A stretch of 64,000 bases of DNA from positions 27,985,891-28,049,890 of the forward strand of contig NC_055990.1 of NCBI RefSeq assembly GCF_018446385.1, in the 5' to 3' direction. The position numbers and the translations under genes were made by a program. The stretch comes from Zingiber officinale. Taxonomy: Eukaryota; Streptophyta; Magnoliopsida; Zingiberales; Zingiberaceae. Below are positions 24,442 through 39,896 of this stretch, one piece after another. A model generated the notes under the pieces. The model ran no database searches. It saw nothing but the letters and a program-made list of their open reading frames with translations, and was not told the origin of the DNA. How positions within the stretch are numbered: the first letter of the stretch is position 1; each line of letters opens with the position of its first letter.

Positions 24442-26166
24442 TGTTGGGATCTTAGATGGCTAGAGGGGGGGGGGTGAATAGCTCCTTTAAAAACTTAAAC
24501 GAAAACTTCTACACAGATAATCGTTAGCACAGCGGAATTAGACAACTAAAAGAGAGAAAAACATAAGCACACTAACACTAGAATTTACGAGGTTCGGGGA
24601 TAACTTGCCCCTACTCCTCGGCGTGTCCGTAAGGTGGACGACTCCTTGATCTTCGGTAGATCGCACCCCGGATAAATTCCGGCTAAAGATCCTCCTTCTC
24701 GGTGGAGTAACCTCTCCACAAAGATCACAAGAGTAGATTTGAAAGTGAAGCACAATTACTTACAGAGTGTGGCTAAAGGATTGAACAGTTTAACTTACAG
24801 CCACGAAGCAGAAAAACAACTACAGGAGGAATCAGCCAAGAGCTCAACGAAAACGCACAGCCTCTTGCTTGAACGACAGAGAGAGTTTTTCCAGAGAGTT
24901 TTTTTCCATCCTCTCCTCTTCCTCCTTCTTATTTCTCTGCTTTCTTCACTGCGTTTGCTTGCATCGAATCACTGCAAACCAGTAGCGTATCACTGTCGCC
25001 AAACCAGGCGTCGCCAATCACGCTTCTTCCTCATCTGAACTCACACCAATACCATCCTTGGTCTTCACTGGTGTCTCTGAGCTCGAACCAATAAGGAAGA
25101 GTTAAGCTGATCGCAGCCAGTGAACCAACTGAACAAGCCAGTGAACGTTGACGCTTCTTTTGCACAATTTGCAGCGATAACCAGTAGAAAAATCATTTTG
25201 TTTTATTCCTTTGATAGTCATTGATTTGAATTCAAACATCACCATGGTACCTGCAGCCTGTAACTCAAAAAGCTCACAAGCAGATGTTAGATCAGATGCA
25301 TCAGAAACGAGTCAGAAATCACAGAGAAGTAGCAGGAGACATGCGACATCACTGTGGATCGGTCAGCAGACCGATCCATGAATTAGTTTCACTGAGATCG
25401 GTCGGAAGATCCTGATCGGTCTGTGGACCGATCAGACTATGTGTGGATCGGTCCACGCACCGCTCCACCCTTTCTCGCCGCTTTCGATCACTTCTTTCGA
25501 TCGGTCCGATCGATAACCCATGTATCGCTTCAGAGTTACCGATCGTCCACGCATCGATTAACCCATAGAATGTTTCTATGTGGATCCCGATCGGTCACCG
25601 CATCGGACAGCCCACGTGGTTACCGATCGGTCACCCGACCGATCGTGATCTTGAGATCATCGATCGGTGCGGACCGATCCAGACGACTCATAGTACACCG
25701 GATCGGTCAGACCGATCCAACGCTACCGAGTGAGTTTTGCAGCTTTCCAGCCCGAAACCCTGAGGTCTTCCTGGTCCCGAGACCGAGCTACCGAGCCCTC
25801 TCTGACCTAGTCCGGAGAACGAGCTACTGAGCCCTCTCCGACCTCATCCGGTCCAGAGAACGAGCTACCGAGTCCTCTCCGACCTCATCCGGTCCAGAAA
25901 ACGAGCTACCGAGCCCTCTCTGACCATTCCGTGCCAAGTCACCATACTTGGACTTTTCCCGTGCCAAGCTCCCTGCTTGGACTTTTTACCAGATGTCTGG
26001 TCAACCTTGACCCATCTGGATTTCCCTTGCCTGGCTTCACTCACCAGGACTTTCCCTCCCAACTGATCAACCTCGATCAGTAGTCATTCTGAGTTAAATT
26101 AATATCTGATACAAACTTAAATCAGTGTCAACATCAAAACAACAGCCAGGTCAGACTGTATCAACA
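24442..26166 (-). repeat. 5' LTR of the Sirevirus
   Basis: It begins TGTTGGGATC after the primer site and ends TGTATCAACA before ATTAA. Compared with 14601-16361 it is 36 bp shorter; most differences fall in the GATC-dyad block at about 25349-25710. The LTR supplies the promoter and polyadenylation signals, but no TATA box could be assigned with confidence. Confidence 0.93.
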
Positions 26167-26176
26167 ATTAACTTCT

Positions 26177-26410
26177 CACTACAACAAAAACTCTCATAGA
26201 CATCAGTGGAACAACAACGGTTTTAAGCAAAAACCGATGTCTTTGAGTATTTTACATCGGTTTTTCCAAAAACCAGTGTCTATGAGCGCATATTTTCGCT
26301 CATAGACATCGGTTTTTTAGGCGATGTCTATGAGCGTCCGTTTTTTCGTTAATAGACACCGATTTTAACATCGGTTTTTAAAATCTGATGTCTATGATAA
26401 TTTTCCCACC
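26177..26410 (+). repeat. 5' terminal and subterminal repeats of the CACTA element
   Basis: The TIR (26177-26204) is followed by at least eight direct or inverted copies of CATAGACATCGGTTTT / AAAACCGATGTCTATG-type units. Such arrays are transposase binding sites in this superfamily (established for En/Spm; inferred here). Confidence 0.88.
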
Positions 26411-26640
26411 AATACTTAGCTAAAATTTTCAACTCTTCCCTCTAACCTAACCCTATATGATGCCGTCCACGGGAGGCAGAGAGAGAGAGCCATCTTCGGG
26501 CGACTCACCTTCTCCGCTTCTATCTTCTCCTCCCCTCCCATCGCCGACCCAATCTCGACCTCCTTTATTCTCCCAATTCGAAGCAGACAGAAACAGAGAT
26601 CGGAGATCTGTGCTTCCGATTCACCGCTCGATCCGCCAAG

Positions 26641-28329
26641 ATGCAGATAGGTTCCGAGAAGGCGTCGTCCCTTGATCTCTTGTCGGTCGTCGTCGCCTCC
26701 CTCTCCGACGGATATGGGCTCGATTCCAGCACCGGGGATGCGTTCGTGGAGAACCGGCTGCTGATCGCCGTCCTAAGCATAGTCATCGCCGTGCTTGTCG
26801 GTTGCGTGGCAATCTTCTTCGTCCGGCGATCGAGCGGAAGGAAGCCCGCCGAGCCGCCGAAGCCGCTAGTGGTGAAGACCCAGATGGATACAGAGGAGGA
26901 CCAAGGGAAGAAGAAGGTCACCGTCTTCTTCAGGACGCAAACCAGGACGGCTGAGGGGTTCACGAAGGTTAGGGTTTTTATCCGAGTAGTTCATTTTTTG
27001 AATTTTTCTCCCATGATCTTAGATTTTCCCCCCTTCTAGGCGCTGGCTGAGGAGGCAAAAGCACGGTACCCTAATGCCATATTTAAAGTCATGGATATCG
27101 TAAGATTATCTTCCTTCTGTTTCAGATCATTGGAAATACTACTGATTAATTGACTGATCTGTAGTTAGTTTCCTCAATTATAGGACGAATATGCTACTGA
27201 GGATGATGAGTATGAGGAGAACCTGAAAAAGGAGAGCTTGGCTTTGTTCTTCTTGGCTACGTAAGTTGAAAGCCAGGAATTCTACAAATGGTTTACAGAG
27301 GTTCTGGAAACATGCACATTTAGTTAATCTATTCTACCAATAATCCTTTTGCCTTGATCGATTGCTGATTATTAGTTTTTATAGGGGAAAGAGAGAGGAA
27401 CCTGGTTGGAAAATCTTCAATTTGGTGTGTTTAGTTTGGGCAATCAGCAATATGAACATTTTAATATGGTTTGGCATGATGAAATTGTCAGTATTTTTTT
27501 TGTGGGAATTGCTTGGCTAATATATTTGTGTATTGTGTCCTTGCAAAGGTTGCTGTGGTGGTCGATGAACTGCTTTATGAGCAAGGTATATAGTTGATTT
27601 ATTTAGTTTGTGATTTGACTAAGTCACATATGCTCCTAAAGCTGATTTTAAATCCTATCTTCAGTTGCAAGCTCAAAGTTCATGCATTTCATTTTTCTAG
27701 AGAATTTAACTTGTTTTGTAGACTAATTGTTACTCTAAAAACTTGTAAAGTCAACATGGTATGAGGAGTTACTAAGAAACAGTTGAGTAGTCATGTTATC
27801 TGTGAGTTTCATACATACAACTGTAATGTAGTAGTCATGTGCAAGTTTGTAGATGTGTTTAATGAATTTAAGCATCATTCGTACTTGGATATTCTTCTAT
27901 ATTTTTTTTCCTCTGCATAAGCGCCAAGCACATTGTCCAAGTGGGGTTAGGAGATGATGATCAGGGTATTGAGGATGACTTCTCTGCATGGTATGTAGTA
28001 TCAGCAAACTTTTATGCATGCCATCCAAATTTCAATGTCGGCTACTGCTATTTTTTAGTTTTCTATTTTTTTTCTCTTTTGCCCATCATTATCTCATTAC
28101 TCCTATGTGGAATATGAAATATCAACTGTACTTTCAGGAGGGAGCTTCTTTGGCCGGAGTTGGATAAGTTACTTCAGGATGAAAATGAGATAGGTGCATC
28201 TACTCCTTATACAGCTGCCATTCCTGAATACCGGGTTGTATTTGTCAAGCTTGAAGAACTTCCATATCTGGACAAAAGTTTGAATTTTGCAAATGGCCAT
28301 GCTATTCATGACATACAACATCCATGCAG
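26641..28329 (+). pseudogene. NADPH-cytochrome P450 reductase, captured 5' fragment
   Basis: Exons at about 26641-26967, 27040-27099, 27184-27260, 27385-27468, ~27543-27585, ~27922-27990 and 28138-28329 encode a membrane anchor (residues ~40-62, AVLSIVIAVLVGCVAIFF) and most of the FMN domain. Landmarks are SLALFFLAT, FGVFSLGNQQYEHFN, VGLGDDDQ and [14 protein letters not shown]. The FAD/NADPH domains are missing after HDIQHPCR. Damage includes: the FMN phosphate loop reads RTQTRTAEG with two Gly-to-Arg changes; the YGDGEPTDNA segment after LAT is deleted with a TAA in place; and one junction near 27922 is out of frame by one base. The intact enzyme passes electrons from NADPH to P450s at the ER; this copy cannot. 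Confidence 0.9.
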
Positions 28330-28594
28330 GTAGAGATGCTCTTTACAAAGACAAATCTGTTGGGTTACTCTACAAGCCTTTGTTGTCATTGCTAGTCTTT
28401 TGACATCCTTTGGTATTCATGCTAGCCTCTTGGTTCATCTTCAAGTCAGATGTATATGAATGCTTACTCTGTGATGCCAAAATTTGACTATCTTGGTAAT
28501 AATGCTAAAAGAATATAGCTTTACTGAACTCCATTTTGCTTCATCATGCTTTAGTTATTCAGATGGTATAGCTAATTTACTCCTTCAGCACACA

Positions 28595-29366
28595 GTTTTA
28601 TGGAAGGTGGCTGGAAAACTAATCATGCCAAAACCAAAGGGCTTAACATCTGAGATTAAAAAAGCTCCGTCATCTGGACTTAAGTGGTCCTTTTCTCCTG
28701 GGACTAACCTGCTATCAGGTGGTGCTGCAAAACTTGAAAAAGAGTCTAGGCAAAAACTAAATGAGTTTTCCAAGGAACTTAGAACATTCAGAAGTGTTGA
28801 CTTGTCAGGTTAGCACACTAAACTTGTTAGAATGTATCTACAGCAAGTGATTACAATTGTTCACTCTATAACTGATTATTTCTAAATCTAATATCTGGTA
28901 ATGAATATGCTGAGATAACTTTTTCAGGGGATTAAACTTACATTTACTTTACCAAGGTAATGGAATACTTGTAGATATTTAACAAATTCATGATTCTATT
29001 AGGTCGTAACTTTGGTGATGATGGTCTGTTTTTTCTTGCTGAAAGCCTTGGTTACAACAGGTTAATTCTTTTCCTTCCTTTTCCATAACCTTACTTTTTT
29101 TCTTGTTCCTACTTGTAAACTATTACTGAACCAGACTCTTAAAGGTATGACATTACTAAAGCAAGACATTTAAGCATAGCTTTTTTTTGTGTCGTTTAAC
29201 ATCTCATTAGTTTTTTTCCAAGTCTCAAGCAACAGAGGAAGTTGATTTTTCTGGAAATGGGATTACAGCAGTTGGCCTAAAGGCACTTTATGGTGTTCTT
29301 CAGACGAATACCATGCTTAAAACTCTGAACCTATCAGGAAATAATATTGGCGATGAAGGAGCTAAG
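28595..29366 (+). pseudogene. RNI-like leucine-rich-repeat gene fragment (EMB2004-like)
   Basis: Three exon-like pieces lie at about 28595-28808, 29003-29060 and 29231-29366. They encode LEKESRQKLNEFSKELRTF, RNFGDDGLFFLAESLGYN and then an RNI-type repeat with LNLSGNNIGDEGAK. Clear GT donors follow each piece. The wording recalls the plant RNI-superfamily protein EMB2004 (from memory). The reading frame does not join cleanly between the second and third pieces, and the remaining repeats are absent. Intervening DNA 28330-28594 looks intronic, possibly the junction where two captured genes were fused. Confidence 0.65.
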
Positions 29367-29885
29367 GTAAGTCCATTTTTTAATTTTAATTTTACTAATT
29401 TTTATGTTTGCGCCTATTCATCTGGAAATAAGCAATTTGATTCTGTTGGAAGTACAGTAGTGTATTGGAATACAAGAAAAATTAAAGTTCATTATCACCA
29501 TTAATTGATAATTTGATATTAGATGATTTCTTTGACGGTAAATGACAAAATTCTTTAATGGTATCAGAAAATATGCCTTTCTGTTTTTTTTTTCTCAAAA
29601 GGTCTCATTCTTCTTGAAGATTTATTTCACATTTTATATGGTTTTAGTATTTGTTATCTACTCTAGAATGTTAATTGTTACATGGATAATTAGACCTTTG
29701 ATGAGGTATTGACATCATATCGTGTCAGCTATAAAATGTATGTATATATGTCATGGATATCCTTTACACAAGACTCTATTTTTATTATTCTTTGTGTGGG
29801 TTTAGCAGTCAGTAGAGGCACTGTACTATCAATAATCTTTTCAATTTTGGTGAATGTTGAAGTTTACACCTGCTTTCTTTTTCAG

Positions 29886-30005
29886 GAGAATGTGGATATT
29901 AAAATTTTAACAAATGATGATGTTCTAGGTGATGCAATACCTTATGATCAGCAAGATGCAATGCGCCACCTCTGTTACCAATTCCTTGATTTAATGCCGC
30001 CTACG
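29886..30005 (+). pseudogene. Unassigned captured exon, 40 codons
   Basis: A 120-bp open stretch is bounded by a TTCAG acceptor and a GTATGG donor. It encodes a conserved-looking peptide with KILTNDDVLGDAIPYD and HLCYQFLDLMPPT. It does not resemble LRR or P450-reductase sequence, so it may come from a third gene. I do not recognise the family. Surrounding 29367-29885 and 30006-30528 are intron-like and T-rich. Confidence 0.5.
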
Positions 30006-30528
30006 GTATGGATACTTCACCTTGTAATAGTTGTTATTTCTTTCAATTATATTATCCACATTAAATGGTCATTAAATAATACTACATCTGTAATAGGAAG
30101 TTGCTGCAATTACACTGGAATTTTAGATCATAAGCTCTACTTTTTTTTCCTTCTTCTAGCACCTCTTGATTTATGATTCAGTTTTTTCTCAGTTTGCCAC
30201 TTTTCTTTTATGGTCTTTCTTTATGAATTTTATTTTTCAAACCTTTATGAATCTGTTATACATAATCAGTCAGGGAGCCTCTGTTATTTATTGATTCACA
30301 AGTACCTGTTATTTTGGTAACTAATATAGTTATACTTTAGATCCAGCCCTACTAAAATTTTCAATTAACAGTCACATTTTCACAATGCGATTTGGTCTTA
30401 TTTGCTGTGGTTTTATTTGATCGTATTAACTCATTTATATTTTATTTCTTATTAGTTCTCTGTTTCTTATTCTTGGTTATTAGGGAAGAACAAACCCACA
30501 ATTTCCTGGTTCACATCCAGTTTCTCTT

Positions 30529-30604
30529 AACAGGTGTGTCTTTATCCTTGTCAATATATATATATATATATATATATATTGACAAGGATAAAGACACACC
30601 TGTT
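30529..30604. repeat. Perfect 76-bp palindrome with TA-repeat centre
   Basis: The arms AACAGGTGTGTCTTTATCCT... (30529 on) are exactly complementary to the other half, centred at 30566.5 in a (TA)n run. The sequence can form a long cruciform or hairpin. It lies outside the nested CACTA element. Confidence 0.92.
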
Positions 30605-30762
30605 TATATATATATGTGTGTGTGTGTGTATATATACATACCTTATTTATTTAACATCTTTAGCCTGACGTGAAAGACAACTAGTAGTTCATTGTGTTTC
30701 AATGTTCAAATCTGCAAAATTATGAATGTATATTTGGATTTTTGGAACAAACAATCTATTGG

Positions 30763-33700
30763 CACTACTAGAAATATAGCCTATTACGACATTTTCTTCA
30801 TGACATTTAATTTTAAATGTCACTATAAATATTTTTTAATGACATTTACCAAAAAAAATTATTTTAAATATAAAAATATCATGTTAGATAATATATGGTG
30901 ACAAATTTCACCAATGTCACCATATACCATCCTAATAACCACTTAATAATTAAGTTTTTTGTTTTTTTTCCCTGCCCTAACGCTAACCCCTTCCCTCATC
31001 ACATGCCGATTTTCCTTCTCCTCTGTTCTCGCTCGTCGCTCACCCACCCTAAGCGCCGCTCCGATCCACCCTAAGTGCCGCTCCGATCCTCTCCCTTTCT
31101 CTTCCCTTAGCTGCTCTCGTCATCGCTGCTTTTCTCCTTGCTCCTCCCTAATCTGCTCTCGTCGGCGCTCCTCTCCCTTTCTCCTCCCTCTACTCTCGTT
31201 CGTTGCCGCTCCTCTCCTTAATCTGCTCTCATTGTCGCTGGGATCTTCACCCACGCTCACGCATACCTGTGCCGCCGTCAGCCTCCACCACGATTCCTCC
31301 ACAGCACTGCCTACACGCCGTGATTCTGCCTTTCTCCTCCCAAACTCATTCTTGTCGTCGCTGCTCCCTAATCTGCGGATCTCACCGTGATTTGTAATTT
31401 GTTTTTTTAATGTTGTGGATTGGAAGCTTTGTATTGTATATGCTCCTAACTAATTTCTTGTTTTTTTTAGGTTGTGGATTGGAAGTTTTGATAGTCACCT
31501 TGCTCCTTTCTACATAATCGAATCAAACAGGTATATATAATAATAGTTTTAAGTTTCAGTCCTTATCTAACAAGCTTCACTTGTATGTGTGGTTGGTTTA
31601 TTTTCTTTGAATTGTGATGGATATGTTTCTTTCTTATGTAACGTGATCAATCTTAGTGAGTGTTATGAGATCTAGGGATTCTTTAGTTTGCTCCACAAGC
31701 TTCACTCAACTCTCTTGATATTTTTCCTCTCTTCTTTTGTGTATAAAAAGAGTTTGTTGGTTTGATGAAACCCACATATCCAATCCTAAATTAGTAGCTG
31801 GGCTGACAAAGTGTGATTATGATGTTATTTAGATGTTTGTGACATCCTATGTAAATGCTTGGGAAAAACTAGTTGTTTACTATTTACTTCAATTATTTAT
31901 ATTTAGTTATCTTGTTTTTTTTCTGCTAAGAGAAAAATATTTCTATCTTTTCATTTGTGAAAAGAATTGTTGATAAATGAACTGAAATAACAATGTTTGG
32001 GCTTTGGATTAAGCTAACATCTTTGACTTCACATGTTTGAGAGATTGCACTTTGTCCGTTAACATCACAGATAGTGACAATAAAGCTTTAGTATTATGAC
32101 TTACTTTTGAGATCTGCTTCCATTAGCTATGGAAAATATTCTTTTGCTGATTCACTCTCTTCTTCTCAAGCCAATACAAAGAAACTAGTTGGAAGTTTTA
32201 CAAAGGTTTGATGAGATCATTGCAGAAAATAGGTTGCACTCGTATATTAGTTGTCTACTGCTAGATTGACTAATAATTACAGTGCCTCTCTGCAACATGA
32301 TTCTAAATTTGCTGATTTGCAAGTTGGCCTTTTATTAGCAACTATGCTATATCCAATGTTTTGTTATTATTGTGTGTGCAGATGTTTGTGATGATATATG
32401 TATATTTGTACTCTGTAGTATGAAGCTGATTGGAGTTCTAGAAATTGGGACTTCTCATTAGTTTCTGGAGAGCACTCCTTATTCAAGATAATCTTCTAGT
32501 AGTTGTCAATTCAACGAGAACTTGCATAGGTTTATATAAACTATTTCTTTTTTCTTTATTGGAATGCATCTGGATTCTGGATTATTTTATTCTTAATCCT
32601 AGACAATTGGTACTAGAAAATAAATGAATGATTTATATTTCTACGATGAAAAAATTAAGTTCCAAGAAACACGGAGGAGTGCTAGAAAATCAGAGTAGTG
32701 CAAGAGTAGTGCTGGAAGAAATCAAGTTTCAAGAAGCTGAGTAGTGCTAGAAAAACTTATTGAGAAATCAAAGAGTCAGGTCTTGGTCGATATGGGGGTT
32801 TGTAAACCATTAGTGAAAGAGTTCATTAATAAGTCTAGGAACTTTAAGTTTAATGAACTCTCCCTTAAAATGTTTTGATACTAAGGTTTTTTATAGGGAA
32901 CAAACAAAATTTTCAGTGTAGGTCTAGAAGTAAACTCCTATTCTATGATTTATTCCTAGAGTTCTTGATTAAAGGCTTGGAAGAGTTGAATTTTGAGGAG
33001 TCGACCTATGACATCTTTCAGTCCCACTACTTCTGTGTTTTGCATGAGAAGACAAATCTGTCAGTGTTGAGTGTTGTGCTTCTCTACAGCTAAACTTTGA
33101 TTTATACCACTTTGCTCATAAAAGGGAGATCTCATGTAGAAGAGTAGCATATGCCTAGTGCACAGTATTTTAAAATTTTATCCACATAGTGTTGGAGGGC
33201 TTGATGGAAGTGCTTAACCTATCACCTAAATTAGCGAACCAAATCCTCTTTCTCAATCTTGACCATGATGATAAAAGTTCATTTTTATCGTCTTAGTGGT
33301 GTGCACGATAACTAACATACTGCTTTGACTTGTATTTGAGTTACAAATTCATTAATATTTTAAGAGTTTTACCAATTTAGTTCTTCTCTTTAGTACTTAA
33401 TATTAGTTCCTATTATTTGTTTGAAAGTTGCCTGAGGTCCTTGAATGAGGGAAATGCCGGTAATGCTTTTCTTTTGATCAAACTTAAATGCTTCCTAGGT
33501 GGAAATCAGACCATCAATTTATTTATATATATGGATAGAAGCAAATCCTATATATATATATATATATATAGGATTTGCTTCTATCCATTGTAAGTGTGAA
33601 TATATTCATTCAGCCATTCTGAAACTTCAAGTCATGGCTTTGTACATTTCCTCCTACATTAAAATAAGCATCAAATTTTCATAGTAGTCTTCATTGACAG

Positions 33701-34840
33701 ATATTAGATCATCATGGTGTCACCTAGGATATCCACTAGAAGCAACACGATCATCAGAAAACTACAACATACTCAAAAGATAAACTAAAATTTCACATGA
33801 TCTTGTTATACCAACAGAAGTTCAGGTATATATCTTCTCTTTTCAGCAAATTTTGAGTAGCTTTATTTTCAAACATTCTTAATTAGCAAGTCCAGGTTGA
33901 TAGTATTAATGCATATAGAATGATACTTTATATGTTTCTTGTTTGGTATGATTTTTAATCTTTTAAATTATGTTTATTAGGTTTATATTTTTATTGTTTA
34001 ATTTACTTATACAAATTTATTGATTGTATTTGTAGGTGATAGGTACTTGGATTTTGCATATGATGGTTGAAGATGATTGATAGTAAATTGTTGAGTTTTT
34101 ATTTTATATGACTTTGTTAGTTTTAAAACTCAATGATTTGTTAGTATTTAGTTAGCATTGGATTCAATACTTTTACATTAGTATTGCATTTGTACTTTTG
34201 TGAAGATGGGATGATATGGTGAATGAATTGGATATTTTGGATGTAAAACGTTTCTATTCTTATTATGGTGAATGGTGATGATGGTTAAATTGTGATGATG
34301 TGTAACTTTTTCTATTATGTGATGAATGTTTTGTGTTCTGAATAAATATTATTAATTTATTATTATGTATTCTAAATGTTTCTATTTAATGTTTTTATAA
34401 AATATTATAATTAACATTTAATAATATCATTATAGATTATATAAGATGACAGTTTAAAATACCCTTATAAATTATCATTACTAACATAATTTATTGTCCT
34501 TATATAAAAATTTAAAAAAATTTATAATTGTCAATATAAATTAGTTTAGGTGACATTTATATTTGTCCTTATTTAGATAATAAAAAGGCATGCATAAATG
34601 TCCATAAAATATGTTTTCGTGACAATTTCGATTGTCATTATATTCCTATATTTAAGACACTTTTGAAGTTAGCATAAATATTTTATAATGACATTATATA
34701 AATGTCAGGAATACTAGAGGGTCTATGCTAACACCGCATATCAATACATTTTTTGGTGGTGTCACCATAGCTTTAGTGTCACTAAAAGTACACTATAAGG
34801 GCATTTATGTGTGTCCTTAAAGGCTATATTTCTAGTAGTG
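30763..34840. mobile_element. Nested nonautonomous CACTA transposon, 4078 bp
   Basis: The ends are perfect 20-bp inverted repeats beginning CACTACTAGAAATATAGCCT (30763-30782 and 34821-34840). A perfect 3-bp TSD, TGG, flanks them (30760-30762, 34841-34843). Subterminal DNA holds many ATGACATTT / AAATGTCA units (30800-30920, 34430-34790). No transposase or other recognisable coding sequence is present; 30960-31390 is C/T-rich and exon-like, followed by intron-like T-rich DNA. It inserted after the larger CACTA element had its gene cargo. Confidence 0.93.
33531..33588. repeat. Perfect 58-bp palindrome with TA-repeat centre
   Basis: The arms ATGGATAGAAGCAAATCC... are exactly complementary around a (TA)n centre at 33559.5. 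It lies inside the nested CACTA element and has the same design as the palindrome at 30529-30604, but with unrelated arm sequence. Confidence 0.92.
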
Positions 34841-35745
34841 TGGTTTACATATATTGTGTTTCCATCTAATATTGTGTTTCCATCTTAAATTCCCATGTAA
34901 CCATGTTTTGGCTGGTTTGCATTTTAGAATGAGCAACCAAAAGCTTTTATCATTCCTTCCCTTTGAAACATTGATGTAAAAGATGTATTTTAAAACATCT
35001 CTAGATGTCTGTAACTTTGTGTATTACTATATTTTGCTATGACCTTACTGTTCTAGCCTATGACCTATTTAGTTATCATCTAGTCTCGTGCCATACAATT
35101 TTCATTTTTATCCTTCTCTACCAGCTCAAATCCTATTCTTTTCTAGTGATTACAATTTCAATACATGTCTGTGTCATGAATTTCCACTGTATATGCTAAG
35201 TGTGTCAAGAGTTATCTCATGTTGTTTTTTCTGGGTGGTGCACTCGATGGCTCCTAACCTCCCTCCCCTTTAATTCTTTATATATATATATATATTACAT
35301 CGCTTTCTGAAGAGAAAGAGAGATGCAATACACTATATATATGCCTCTACGAACCCTAGACCTCCTCTCCCTCTTCCTCCATTGCCTCATTTCTCTTCTG
35401 GTGAGCTTCCCTTCTCTCAACATTTTCAATCTGTAAGTTACTTAAACTCTGCATATATATGATTATGTACTTATTACTGAATGAATATATACACTAAGAG
35501 TGTGTTCTACGTTAACATTGAGCATGCAACCATTCATCTTGTATAAGTTGTAGTGCACTCAAAGAAACATCTCTCTCTCTATATGTGGCCGGTAGTGCTT
35601 TTCATGTTTTCTAGTTAGCTTTTTCTTACTAACTTATATTGGAAGGCTTCAATTGCAAAATAAACTTGAAAGTTGTAATAATTCAGGAGTGCTTCGATCG
35701 ATCAGAAGGTAGATTAATAAGTGCAGTATATATTAATTCTTTGAG

Positions 35746-36570
35746 ATGGAAGGAGAGAGCAGCGTCGTTCCACCGGGTTTCAGGTTTCATCCCACAGAAG
35801 AAGAGCTGGTGGGCTACTACCTTGCGAGAAAGGTAGCTTCTCAAGAGATTGATTTAGATATCATTCAAGATGTCGATCTTTATCGAATAGAACCTTGGGA
35901 TCTTCAAGGTCAGCATACTTAATTTAATTAATTACTACTCTCGATGATCAAGTACTTTGCTAGCTAATTATCTATCTTTTACTTTGGTTAAATTAACAAA
36001 TATATAGATAAGTGCAAGCATGGAGTACATGAGGAGCAAAAAGAATGGTACTTCTTTAGCTTCAAGGATAGGAAGTATCCAAGTGGGACGAGGACGAATA
36101 GAGCTACTTCAGCTGGATTTTGGAAGGCAACCGGTCGAGACAAGCCGGTGTTATCGAAGTTTAGGGTAATAGGGATGCACAAAACGCTTGTCTTCTATAA
36201 GGGAAGAGCACCAAATGGGAAGAAAACCGATTGGATCATCCATGAATATTGTCTTCAATCCAATGAAAATGACCCAACTCAGGTAGGTCAATCATAATGA
36301 TCATCCTCAAGCTGTGTATGTTAGTGAAAAACAATCATATTAATACATGTATGAAACACATGCATACTGAAGTATTTTGATGTGTAAAACTTGACACAGG
36401 AAGAAGGATGGGTTGTTTGTAGAGCATTCAAGAAGCCAAACCCCAATCAAAGGCCTAATTTGGACAGTTTAGGGCACAATTACTATCAAGGGTTAGATTT
36501 GAACTTGTTATTCATAGATCTATCACTATATGATGTGGTTGAGATAATTGATAAATGTTTATCTTTTTAA
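35746..36570 (+). CDS. Captured NAC transcription factor, VND7-like, truncated
   Basis: Exons 35746-35908, 36008-36282 and 36400-36570 have consensus GT-AG borders and join into a 202-codon open frame ending TAA at 36568-36570. All five NAC subdomains are present: [84 protein letters not shown] and [13 protein letters not shown]. The FRKP-NQRP-type ending and overall wording fit the VND7 group of xylem vessel regulators (from memory). After the domain about 30 unrelated residues replace the activation region. One odd change is H for R in GM-R-KTL. If expressed it could bind DNA or dimerise without activating. The 5' leader 35277-35745 with TATATA runs may be captured promoter. Confidence 0.82.
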
Positions 36571-37103
36571 GCATTCTAATTAGTCATCTTGTTACCTGGT
36601 GCTCTTATTGCATTTTCAACTATGATCTTTGGTCTTGGTTTACTAATATATTATTTATGTGTTTTTACAGTTTACAAATCTCAAGTACTCTAGAGTTGAA
36701 ATTGATGAAGTGCGGTTCGAGTGGGTTGAATGCATGCTAGATTACATTTGAAGTGCGGTTCTACCTTGATGTGTTAAAAGAATGTTCTACCTTGATTTTG
36801 ATATCTATTAGCTAGCTTTTGATGTAAAAAGAATGTTTGAGTATTTTATGGATACTGTTGTAAGAAGATTATTTATATAATTTGTGAATATTTGTATATT
36901 TTATGGATATTGTTGAATGAAGAATATTTGTATAATTTGTGAATATTTGTGTATTTTTTTATTATTGTCGGTTTTCATTATTTCGGAAATCAAATTTGTG
37001 CTGTTAAAAATATACATATTACATCGGTTTTCCACCGCTGCAAAACCGATGTTATTAACTAATATTACATCGGTCATTTACCGCTGCCAAAACTGGTGTT
37101 ATT

Positions 37104-38824
37104 TGTTGGTGCAACCTTAGGTCAAGGTTGACCTGGTTGACCCGACTCGAGTTGACCTGACTCGAGTTGTATTTTGATGTTTGACGAGAATAGAAAAGTT
37201 GTATCTTGATGTTTGACAAGAATACAAACTTGGGAGATTGTGGGTGCAACCTTCGGTCAAGGTTGACCTGGTTGACCCGACTTGAGTTGATTTGATTCGG
37301 TAAAGTCCAAGTATGGAGACTTGGCACGGGAAAAGTCCAAGTATGGAGACTTGGCACGGAAAAGTCCAAGCAGGGAGCTTGGCACGGGGAAAAGTCCAAG
37401 TATGGAGACTTGGCACGGAAAAGTCCAAGCAGGGAGCTTGGCACGGGAGAAGTCCAAGTATGGAAGCTTGGCATGGGAAGTCGGAGAGGGCTCGGCAGCT
37501 CGTTCTCCGGACTAGGTCAGAGAGGGCTCGGAAGCTCGTTCTCTGGACCGGACGAAGTCGGAGAGGGCTCGGCAGCTCGTTCTCCGGACTAGGTCAGAGA
37601 GGGCTCGGAAGCTCGTTCTCTGGACCGGATGAAGTCGGAGAGGGCTCGGTAGCTCGTTCTCCGGACTAGGTCAGAGAGGGCTCGGTAGCTTGTTCTCTGG
37701 GGTCGGAGAGGGCTCGGTAGCTCGTTCTCTGGAGCAGATGAAGTCGGAGAGGGTTCGGTAGCTCGTTCTCCAGACTAGGTCAGAGAGGGCTCGGTAGCTC
37801 GTTCTCTGGACCGGACGTGGAAGTCGGAGAGGGCTCGGTAGCTCGTTCTCCAGACTAGGTCAGAGAGGGCTCGGTAGCTCGTTCTCAAGACCAGGAAGGC
37901 CTTAGGATTTAGGGATGAGAAGCTCTAAATCCACATGGGCATTGGATCGATCAGCAGACCGATCCAGTGATACTCAGGTTTATCTAATCGGTCTGGTGAC
38001 CGATCAGTAACCAAACAGAGGTCACTGTGAGTTATCTGATCGGTCTGTAGACCGATCAAGAAGCCTACTGATCGGTCCACAGACCGATCAGGAAGCGATC
38101 AGAAACGAGAACAGAGATGGCTGACCGGTCTGGGGACCGATCAGCCTAGGGCCTGATCGGTCCACAGACCGATCAGATGGCTCCCAGACCGATCAGGGTG
38201 GAGCCTGATCGGTCCAGGCCTAGCCGTTGCGACACAATGGCTAGATTTCTGTGTTGTTCTTTGTCTTCTTCTTCACAGGTGCAGATATAAATCAGATGCT
38301 GAGCACCTCTACGAATAGTTGTTCTTCTTCCTCACTCTTGCGATCTGAGCTTTGCTGAGCTCCCTATTCCTGAAGCTTCGTGTGAGCTTTCCTCGACTGG
38401 GTGATCAGTTGCTGTTGACATCGTGAAGTTGCTGCTTCATCGAACTCCAGTCGACGAGAAGGCAAGCAAAGTGTTTTTACATTTATATTGTTCTTGTTTT
38501 CTTTCTCTATTGGTTGTACTCCATTCTTGCTGTTGCAAGAGAGATTGTGGCGAGGTTTCTCCACCCAAAAGGAGTTCATATTAGCCGGTTATCCTGGGTC
38601 TCATCCACCGACGGTTTGATAGGTTTCGTCCACCTTACGAACACGCCGAGGAGTAGGAGTATCATCTCCGAACCTCGTTATATCATCGTGTTTGAGGTTT
38701 GATCTTCTTCACTTTCATTTCTACATTGTATTTCCGCTGCGCTAACCTAAATTGTAGGAAGAAACGATAATTTGAGGTCGGCTATTCACACCCCCCTCTC
38801 TAGCCGCATCCGAAGGTCCTAACA
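37104..38824 (+). mobile_element. Solo LTR related to the Sirevirus LTRs
   Basis: It runs from TGTTGGTGCAAC to GGTCCTAACA with a perfect 5-bp TSD, TTATT (37099-37103, 38825-38829), inside the 3' subterminal region of the larger CACTA element. The interior shares GATCGGTC...GACCGATC dyads (37940-38215), GAGGGCTCGGTAGCTCGTTCTC units and the CTATTCACACCCCCCTCTCTAGCC terminus region with the 14601-26166 LTRs, in opposite orientation. No internal region remains, so it is the product of LTR-LTR recombination. Confidence 0.92.
37300..37905. repeat. Two tandem-repeat blocks in the solo LTR
   Basis: Bases 37305-37475 are repeats of a 26-29 bp unit, AAGTCCAAGTATGGAGACTT plus GGCACGG. Bases 37480-37895 are repeats of a ~35-bp unit, GTC(G/A)GAGAGGGCTCGGTAGC plus TCGTTCTC, about a dozen copies. 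ORFs spanning these blocks are repeat artefacts. Confidence 0.88.
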
Positions 38825-39056
38825 TTATTAACATATAATATTACATCGGTTTTACACCGTTGATGAAACAGTGTTGTTAAGTGATACTACACCGGTTAAT
38901 AACCGATTCGAAGACCGGTGTCGTTAAGTGATACTACACCGGTTTTAACCCGATGTCTAAAATGGCAGACTTTTAACATCGGCTTCATAGACATCGGTCG
39001 AAAATGAAATAGACACCGGTGGAAAACCGATGTCTATGAGGATTTTTGTTGTAGTG
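38825..39056 (+). repeat. 3' subterminal and terminal repeats of the CACTA element
   Basis: Continuing from 36960-37098 across the solo LTR, this holds repeated TACATCGGTTTT, ACACCGGTT and GACATCGGT units and ends in the 28-bp TIR (39029-39056). Bases 36571-36959 between the NAC gene and these repeats show nothing recognisable. Confidence 0.88.
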
Positions 39057-39896
39057 TCTATATAGAGCATACCTTTGTCAGAACGCTTCTGAGCAAGATA
39101 CTCCTTACAATTGCGCCTCCAATATTCAGGCCTATTGCAATGGAAACAAACATGTTCTGATTGATTAAACTTTGTGGGCCTTGGCTTCTTAATTATTAGG
39201 TTTAATCTTCTTTATAGGGGCAGAACACTTCTTTCCCTTTTTCTTAGGTCCTTTCTTGGATCCAGAAGATGAACCCACAAGGAAAATAGATTTTTCCTTT
39301 TTCATTATCGCTTCATAATTTGCAAGCATATTGACTAGCTCTTCAAGGGTAGCCTCTAGCTTATTCATATTGAAATTAACCACAAAATTATCAAATGAGG
39401 AGGGGAGAGATAACAATATGACGTATGTTGATAGCTCGTGTGGAATAACTAAGTCAAGGTTCACCAACTTTTCAATAAGCCCAATCATCTTAACTCCATG
39501 CTCATGGATCGAAGCCCCATATCACATACGAGCTGTCATGAGCTCCTTGATAGTCGCGTGCCTGACTGAACGAGTTTGTGCACCATACAACTGTTGTAGG
39601 TGTATGTGAATATCTTTAGCATCCACAATCTCCTCAAACCGCCTTTGTAATTCATTTGACATTGAAGCCAACATATAACATCTTACTTGAAGATTATGGT
39701 CCGACCATTTTTCAAGCTTTTCCAACTCATCAGAGGTGACATTAACAAGAGCCTCTTTTGGAGGTGCCTTATCCAATGTATATGCAATCTTTTCAGATGC
39801 CAGAATAATCTTTAAATTTCTTAGCCAATCAGAATAGTTAGGTCCAGTTAATTTGTTCTAATCAAGTATCACAGATAGTGAATTCTGAGATGCCAT
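39057..39896 (-). pseudogene. gag: Copia gag fragment
   Basis: Reading starts at an ATG at 39896. It contains NYSDWLRNLKIILASEKIAY, VRCYMLASMSNELQRRFEEI, ATIKELMTARM, a stop, then LIEKLVNLDLVIPHELST and ANYEAIMKKEKSIFLVGSS, a lysine-rich stretch and a zinc knuckle CFHCNRPEYWRRNC. The knuckle has Tyr where His is expected. In-frame stops interrupt it three or more times. The frame stops at the CACTA insertion (39057) and continues at 26176. Confidence 0.88.

Follow-up and report, generated by a model that had tools for sequence, protein, structure and literature searches.

How did pieces of several host genes, introns included, come to lie side by side and in one orientation between the ends of a single CACTA transposon in the genome of ginger (Zingiber officinale)? 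The locus occupies positions 26177 to 39056 of the 64,000-nucleotide stretch of DNA analysed here, hereafter the window. Gene-capturing CACTA elements are already known, for example the En/Spm-related Tpn1 family of morning glory, which captures host genes and which the ginger family resembles in both respects, and the route by which such elements acquire their cargo is still argued. The explanation that we consider probable is stepwise Pack-CACTA capture by error-prone (abortive) gap repair, giving an amplified family whose members have exchanged cargo that probably has no host function.

An outer CACTA element with two later insertions

The outer element (26177..39056, plus strand) is bounded by terminal inverted repeats at 26177..26204 (plus strand) and 39029..39056 (minus strand), which carry CACTACAACAAAAA(CT/TC)CTCATAGACATC and its inversion and agree at 26 of 28 bases, and it is flanked on both sides by TCT (26174..26176 and 39057..39059), as the original prediction of near-perfect 28-bp ends with a perfect TCT duplication had stated. 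The repeats start with CACTA/CACTG, which, like the 3-bp target duplication, places the element in the CACTA (En/Spm) superfamily, and so do the subterminal repeats, which occur in both orientations and are confined to the terminal regions (5′, 26205..26477; 3′, 38830..39028; both on the plus strand): exact ACATCGG/CCGATGT motifs are found in two zones, element positions 58-192 and 10845 onwards, with none between. The genome search for the ends that had been proposed as a check returned 3328 + 3306 occurrences of the 28-mer with at most 3 mismatches in the 3.09-Gb assembly and 0 for the reversed control, and the 3-bp flanks were identical in 14/14 fetched sister copies with both ends recognised (in the other 6/20, at least one end lay outside the sequence fetched or went unrecognised); together these results exclude a chance origin of the ends. 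Moreover, both ends belong to one element, as two sister copies (L029 and L036) have the same layout throughout and a third (L023) has it except for the right cassette, with target duplications of their own. By frame length the element is non-autonomous, with no long transposase frame: the longest stop-to-stop frame in the intact sister copy L036 has 160 aa and covers a capping exon, a measure that leaves room for a decayed transposase remnant. A CACTA transposase encoded at another place in the genome may have mobilised it in trans.

The ends and the TCT duplication of the 12.9-kb element first proposed stood, but not its size, since two later insertions (together 5.8 kb) had been missed and the net length without them is 7073 bp. 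The first is a second non-autonomous CACTA element (30763..34840) with CACTACTAGAAATATAGCC ends, 20 identical end bases and a TGG duplication; the second is a solo LTR (37104..38824; TG...CA, 1721 bp) with a TTATT duplication. In the sister copies covering these sites the flanks are joined without either insertion, and in architecture 5 (see below) other DNA follows the first site. The nested CACTA element was also considered as a part of the composite and rejected, being missing from the copy on C20 and from the sister copies covering the site.

Four captured gene pieces and their donors

At least three host genes had been predicted to contribute exons; we found four, all on the plus strand, and donors were located for three of them. 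The first is the 5′ part of a cytochrome P450 reductase (CPR) gene (26478..28354), comprising exon 1 and following exons with introns and beginning about 163 bp upstream of the ATG (26641). It is identified by P450 reductases in PDB (best E=2.3e-65), the Pfam flavodoxin match (E=0.00076 only) staying under its cut-off. Its donor lies at C21:8522600-8525800, to which the window aligns in two pieces (26478-27281 and 27280-28354) and L036 in an unbroken match over 1,993 bp including introns (94%), with a divergence of 4.9-5.4% for the copies. The window lacks 98 bp after 27281 (intron end and exon start) that all four of the other copies with a fully read CPR piece (L021, L023, L029 and L036) possess. 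The CPR query found the window and at least 39 other places at 94-99% among the 40 of 116 candidates scored, most of these places being known from the query match only.

The second piece consists of LRR/RNI-type exons (28600..29366, plus strand; about 28600-28808, 29003-29060 and 29223-29366, limits taken directly from the sequence), with matches to Pfam LRR_6 (E=2.2e-15) and to ribonuclease inhibitor (E=6.2e-19). The third includes the exon left unassigned before (29886-30005, with 30484-30533), which by sequence comparison is part of an mRNA-capping enzyme gene. Its first part covers 29563..30762 and its intron continues at 34841..35240 (both on the plus strand) beyond an internal deletion of roughly 1.15 kb that architectures 1-4 have in common. 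For the Pfam and PDB matches to the capping enzyme the query joined the window exon to downstream exons of sister copies; the piece itself aligns, through L036, to the donor gene on C15 (97.4% over 1,189 bp), and another copy, L034, matches this donor at 95.3% over 3,184 bp, introns included. These long matches across CPR and capping introns bear out the predicted capture at DNA level. The divergence of the capping copies from the donor is 1.2-2.5%. Of 55 candidates for the capping query 40 were scored, and these gave at least 40 full-length places: besides the window and the donor gene itself there are 38 at 89-97%, 20 of which were read.

The fourth piece is the 5′ part of a NAC (VND7-type) gene (35241..36486, plus strand; exons 35746-35908, 36008-36282 and 36400-36486; Pfam NAM, E=1.2e-46), including about 505 bp of upstream DNA. 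Its donor is an intact native gene at C10:85291927-85293173 with an allele at C9:87987189-87988435; this pair carries an intact C-terminal exon that is absent from the element, the copies diverge from it by 1.0-1.9%, and beyond each join the agreement between the native gene and the element extends over no more than 1 base. A loss of the NAC donor from ginger had been considered and was rejected once the sequence flanking the C10/C9 pair revealed the native gene to be intact. That reading arose because the best match outside a set of seven near-identical places was a paralog at 75% (C11, C12), and because orthologs from Musa and Curcuma seemed closer; the 97% identity to Curcuma (167/172) belongs to the native C9 allele and not to an element copy.

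The pieces were thus captured at different ages, as originally predicted, on the ground of their unequal donor divergence (CPR 4.9-5.4%, capping enzyme 1.2-2.5%, NAC 1.0-1.9%) and not of the broken versus open frames first invoked. A host gene cluster lying by chance between unrelated CACTA ends is refuted, its probability being practically negligible: the same or a similar layout, with the same or similar ends, recurs in insertions that arose independently, each with a 3-bp duplication of its own, and the three located donors are all on other contigs.

Exchange of cargo among sister copies

The 20 sister copies were chosen for carrying the capping piece, so that the comparison covers this part of the family. 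Five architectures were distinguished among them and the window, all with the capping core; the left side carries CPR and LRR, Aux/IAA, or the unassigned M5, and the right side carries NAC, or kinase-like and pyrophosphatase pieces. Copies with the same ends and cargo occur repeatedly, as expected for Pack-CACTA elements. The left halves of architectures 1-4 differ from that of architecture 5, including the first 207 bp (about 90% identical), and the 5′ ends seen begin with CACTACAAG in architecture 5 (4/6 seen) and, in the remaining architectures, with CACTACAAC or CACTACAAT. A 3′ part (36487..37098, plus strand) is shared, its portion 36487-36738 not being seen in architecture 4 (L039). M5, on the minus strand of architecture 5, was rejected as a recognised gene and left out of the orientation count below, as its 204-aa frame has no Pfam match; this frame has six relatives, and the five named are all from ginger. 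For the copy on C6, the idea of a precursor lacking capping cargo was likewise dropped, since the join identifies this copy as a deletion derivative.

One exchange is on the right side, where the window has 1,246 bp of the NAC gene at the site of a cassette of 1,429 bp (cassette X) in other copies. Among the 20 copies, cassette X is whole in 13, partial in five (from base 399 on in L027, the first 461 bases in L039, and the first 154 in L026, L031 and L038) and missing in L029 and L036. The NAC piece has taken the place of an older cassette, in agreement with the stepwise capture proposed before. In L029 a short patch resembling cassette X stands at the NAC join, which could reflect exchange between copies.

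Probable neutral decay of the captured exons

The predicted co-orientation was also borne out: all cargo has one orientation (4/4 in the window and 7/7 of the gene pieces recognised in the copies read). The captures of CPR, NAC and Aux/IAA include the start codon, those of CPR and NAC also include upstream DNA, splice sites look retained at several cargo exons, and the NAC piece of one copy is annotated as a ginger gene, ZIOFF_071304. These features would fit an exapted composite gene, in which a single chimeric transcript of the pieces would serve the host. Against it, the 98-bp loss breaks the window CPR, two large insertions disrupt the window copy, and the captured exons are no less variable than the introns. 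Among five CPR copies, 33 of 823 exon sites and 15 of 866 intron sites vary; fixed differences from the donor number 41 in exons and 21 in introns, the same ratio as for the variable sites (P=0.84). For NAC, with four element copies and two native alleles pooled, 22 of 522 exon and 6 of 216 intron sites vary. Furthermore, the fixed CPR changes comprise 44 C>T or G>A and 11 T>C or A>G, a methylation-like decay. Since captured CPR and NAC exons vary among copies no less than introns, the captured exons look neutral and the cargo is probably without host function; we regard exaptation as very unlikely.

Proposed order and mechanism of capture

The family keeps related ends and the capping-enzyme core, and its other interior cargo has been exchanged. 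We infer that its starting point, like architecture 5, had capping-enzyme, kinase-like and pyrophosphatase pieces; this element would next have lost about 1.15 kb and then gained a new left half with the CPR and LRR pieces. In one sub-lineage 1,246 bp from the NAC gene would have taken the place of the right cassette (1,429 bp), and in another Aux/IAA that of CPR/LRR. A point against this reading is that the join on the left, at 29563, suggests attachment of the CPR half to a capping element that already existed, whereas CPR is the oldest piece by divergence. An earlier separate CPR-bearing element would thus be needed; none was found among the copies read, which were chosen by their capping piece. 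Judging from the joins, a break inside a copy, from excision or other damage, would have been resected, repair synthesis would have switched to an unrelated gene, and the ends would then have been rejoined end to end.

A fusion after tandem insertion, in which two nearby related CACTA elements lose their inner ends and the outer ends move with the intervening DNA, has been described for Pack-TYPE elements (PMC8903248; PMC13317346). The differing first 207 bp of architectures 1-4 and 5, and their CACTACAAG versus CACTACAAC/CACTACAAT 5′ ends, look as if the 5′ end of another element had been taken over. However, the exchanges involving NAC and Aux/IAA lie inside the element and are bordered on each side by shared sequence, the donor genes are on different contigs (C21, C15 and C10), and exact ACATCGG/CCGATGT motifs are absent from the interior of the window element and of five copies, which the fusion model accommodates by later loss. 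We consider fusion unlikely and favour gap repair. The joins with donor sequence, the in-place replacement and the many copies make gap repair versus tandem fusion directly testable. More speculatively, the family may act as a cassette exchanger whose two slots are repeatedly refilled, preferably in one orientation and often with donor 5′ ends, spreading successive promoter-plus-exon combinations genome-wide within roughly a few million years, an idea that we hold tentatively and regard as somewhat doubtful.

Comparison with known gene-capturing elements

In the parts of the reports considered here, three systems come close. Tgm-Express1 of soybean, a CACTA element, contains fragments from five unrelated host genes, and chimeric splicing has been shown for it in one allele (PMC1947982); the ginger element likewise carries unrelated host gene fragments with exons and introns kept, whereas its core occurs at many places with cargo varying by copy, and it is known from sequence alone. 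Pack-CACTA/Pack-TYPE elements of Arabidopsis, rice and maize enclose host DNA, which in maize often derives from several loci, and form amplified groups (PMC8903248). They share with the ginger family non-autonomous TIR elements, conserved ends and host DNA inside; the ginger cargo is substituted in place, whereas the PIF and Mariner examples on which this comparison rests (the CACTA examples stand in the supplement) involve inserted or fused pieces 58 to 280 bp long. In wheat chromosome 3B, 140 CACTA-mediated capture events were reported, with one gene repeated in several copies (PMC4290129); genes were thus captured through CACTA elements there too, but some are expressed and under purifying selection, whereas the captured ginger exons look neutral.

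The ginger family shows the donors together with intermediates and end products, in copies numerous enough to order the steps, and the differing assortments of its sister copies show that elements of this kind can lose one gene piece and gain another. In addition, ZIOFF_071304 is a warning that captured copies can pass as annotated host genes.

Structure of the outer element and later insertions

The outer element, a non-autonomous Pack-CACTA type element on the plus strand at 26177-39056, is bounded by CACTA ends in which 26 of the 28 bases agree, and TCT flanks it left and right, as originally predicted. The 28-base end pattern, allowing at most three mismatches, gave 3328 forward and 3306 reverse matches in the ginger assembly versus 0 for the control. 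The predicted size of 12.9 kb stands for the span between the paired ends but not for the element itself, whose own length is 7073 bp once two later insertions are removed: another CACTA element at 30763-34840, flanked by a TGG duplication, and, at 37104-38824, a solo LTR with a TTATT duplication. This length is near those of the sister copies L036 (7096) and L029 (7139). In the sister copies covering the insertion sites, the flanks join directly and neither insertion is present, except that in layout 5 (see below) the first site is followed by other capping-gene DNA. The nested CACTA is also absent from a copy on contig C20, which, like the window, is without 98 bases of the cytochrome P450 reductase (CPR) piece.

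Read from the sequence, the right flank (39080-39200) resembles the gag of a retrotransposon on the minus strand, including a CCHC zinc knuckle, and thus the outer element probably sits inside a retrotransposon. Part of the solo LTR (37320-37929) has a relative in inverted orientation in the left flank, at 25736-25986. Moreover, there are two palindromes centred on (TA)n. That at about 30529-30604, where a capping exon of the outer element meets an intron, is perfect with 38-base arms; the other, at about 33531-33588, is in the nested CACTA. The longer inverted match at the former occurs in the window alone among the best 40 of 55 capping-query candidates. Fold-back synthesis at TA repeats and an assembly artefact are both possible origins.

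Cargo and donor genes

The cargo pieces, all on the plus strand, are ordered CPR, LRR, capping enzyme and NAC. The prediction of P450 reductase, RNI/LRR and NAC sequences was confirmed, while the exon it left unassigned belongs to the capping enzyme. Three of the four pieces were aligned to parent loci, on contigs C21 (CPR), C15 (capping) and C10 and C9 (NAC). For CPR, the FAD-binding domain, which is mostly absent from the element, was used to search for the gene family and returned several loci among 33 rows, and that on C21 was read; its upstream part matches 26478-28354 with introns included (94% on L036), which agrees with the proposed capture at the DNA level. The capping piece aligns to its donor gene (compared through L036), and its profile and PDB matches rest mainly on exons joined in from sister copies. 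The C-terminal domain of the capping enzyme occurs at 10 places in the genome; the one read, on C15, has the exons from the phosphatase part through the C-terminus, with no end of the outer-element family in the 7.6 kb read. Two haplotypes of a single-copy gene would be expected to give fewer places than ten, and some of them may be longer captures.

The NAC search (all 40 candidates scored) gave seven places at 98–100%, one of them broken, and the next best at 75%. Two of them, C10:85291927 and C9:87987189, are the native alleles: there the sequence runs on into an intact C-terminal exon resembling the one in Curcuma longa P0135. The remaining five belong to element copies, of which the window, L029 and L036 were read whole, the one on C20 was assigned by its flank and C9:37976667 by a neighbouring capping match.

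Cargo layouts in the family

The capping query has at least 40 full-length places (the best 40 of 55 candidates), namely the window, the C15 donor and 38 others, 20 of which were fetched (L021-L040). With the window, these copies and their cargo fall into five layouts. Layout 1 (window, L029, L036) has CPR+LRR, capping and NAC; layout 2 (L021, L023 and L022, the last showing it only from 28285 on) has CPR+LRR, capping and the right-hand cassette X; layout 3 (L024, L025, L028, L035, L037, L040) has the first exon of Aux/IAA, capping and X; layout 4 (L026, L031, L038) has more of Aux/IAA, capping and the first 154 bases of X; and layout 5 (L027, L030, L032, L033, L034, L039) has a left-hand segment M5, a longer capping piece and all or part of X. 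In L022, L024, L030, L031, L033 and L039 at least one end lies outside the view or was not recognised; L030 and L033 may represent two alleles of a single insertion. The 1,429-bp X contains the next capping exon, a kinase-like exon (E=0.00069, below the Pfam cut-off) and soluble pyrophosphatase sequence (PDB E=1.8e-11; no match in the Pfam search). M5 (L034:2766-4470) has, on its minus strand, a 204-aa frame for which six relatives were found; five are named as ginger proteins, and one of these five, called peptidylprolyl isomerase (P0214, PF00160), is perhaps another mixed gene model.

The predicted co-orientation was found in the four window pieces and extends to all recognised pieces over the copies read (CPR, LRR, capping, NAC, Aux/IAA, kinase-like and pyrophosphatase; 7/7, M5 being left out as it has no recognised gene). 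The two-sided chance is 0.016 if the pieces are independent, a weak test drawn from capping-bearing copies alone.

Order of changes and capture ages

Layouts 1-4 lack about 1.15 kb of the capping gene that layout 5 retains, and layout 5 also reaches about 220 bp further left into this gene; judged from these sequences, layout 5 is therefore older at the two joins. Layouts 3 and 4 retain the first 80 CPR coding bases ahead of Aux/IAA, and in layout 3 Aux/IAA is followed by about 19 bp of the stretch after the CPR piece (around 28444-28462), which argues that Aux/IAA replaced CPR. NAC occupies the position of X in other copies, and beyond neither of its joins do native NAC and element agree for more than 1 base. 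At the NAC join of L029 (6276-6305), an approximately 20-bp patch resembles X, the older cassette there, and may have been left by exchange between copies.

Different capture ages, as predicted, are borne out by the divergence from donors: 4.9–5.4% for CPR (five copies, 0.9–1.8% among themselves; 78/1852 sites fixed), 1.2–2.5% for capping (21 copies; 7/1060 fixed) and 1.0–1.9% for NAC (four copies against two alleles; 2/1189 fixed). At 6.5e-9 substitutions per site per year, the rate given for ginger LTRs in PMC8342499, the captures would date very roughly to 4, 1.4 and 1.1 million years ago, respectively, the NAC figure lying inside the range set by the host alleles, which differ by 1.2%. The CPR age is inflated because of an excess of C>T or G>A changes (44 versus 11 in the other direction), which itself points to methylation in the lineage of the element.

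Comparison with published elements

Pack-CACTA elements, multi-locus cargo and a tandem-fusion model (PMC8903248, PMC13317346), the five gene fragments of Tgm-Express1 (PMC1947982) and wheat CACTA captures (PMC4290129) are already published, and for the capture mechanism PMC8978399 refers to a paper by Rubin and Levy with abortive gap repair in its title. Of the papers listed for CACTA in Zingiber (15 of 308), none has a title on the transposon, ginger was not found in the titles or abstract openings of the 17 papers listed for Pack-CACTA, and CACTA is not mentioned in the main texts of the two ginger genome papers (PMC8342452, PMC8342499). Thus, we found no earlier description of this family in a literature poor in subscription journals.

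Constraint and gene annotation

There is no sign of constraint on the captured CPR exons in the five copies, where 4.0% of exon sites are variable versus 1.7% of intron sites; the fixed differences have the same exon/intron ratio (Fisher P=0.84). For NAC, 22/522 exon and 6/216 intron sites are variable (four element copies and two native alleles pooled). In L036 (C21:49806784-49816783), the transposon's NAC piece carries the annotation of a ginger gene, ZIOFF_071304 (protein P0010), whose model has an extra exon taken from downstream element DNA.
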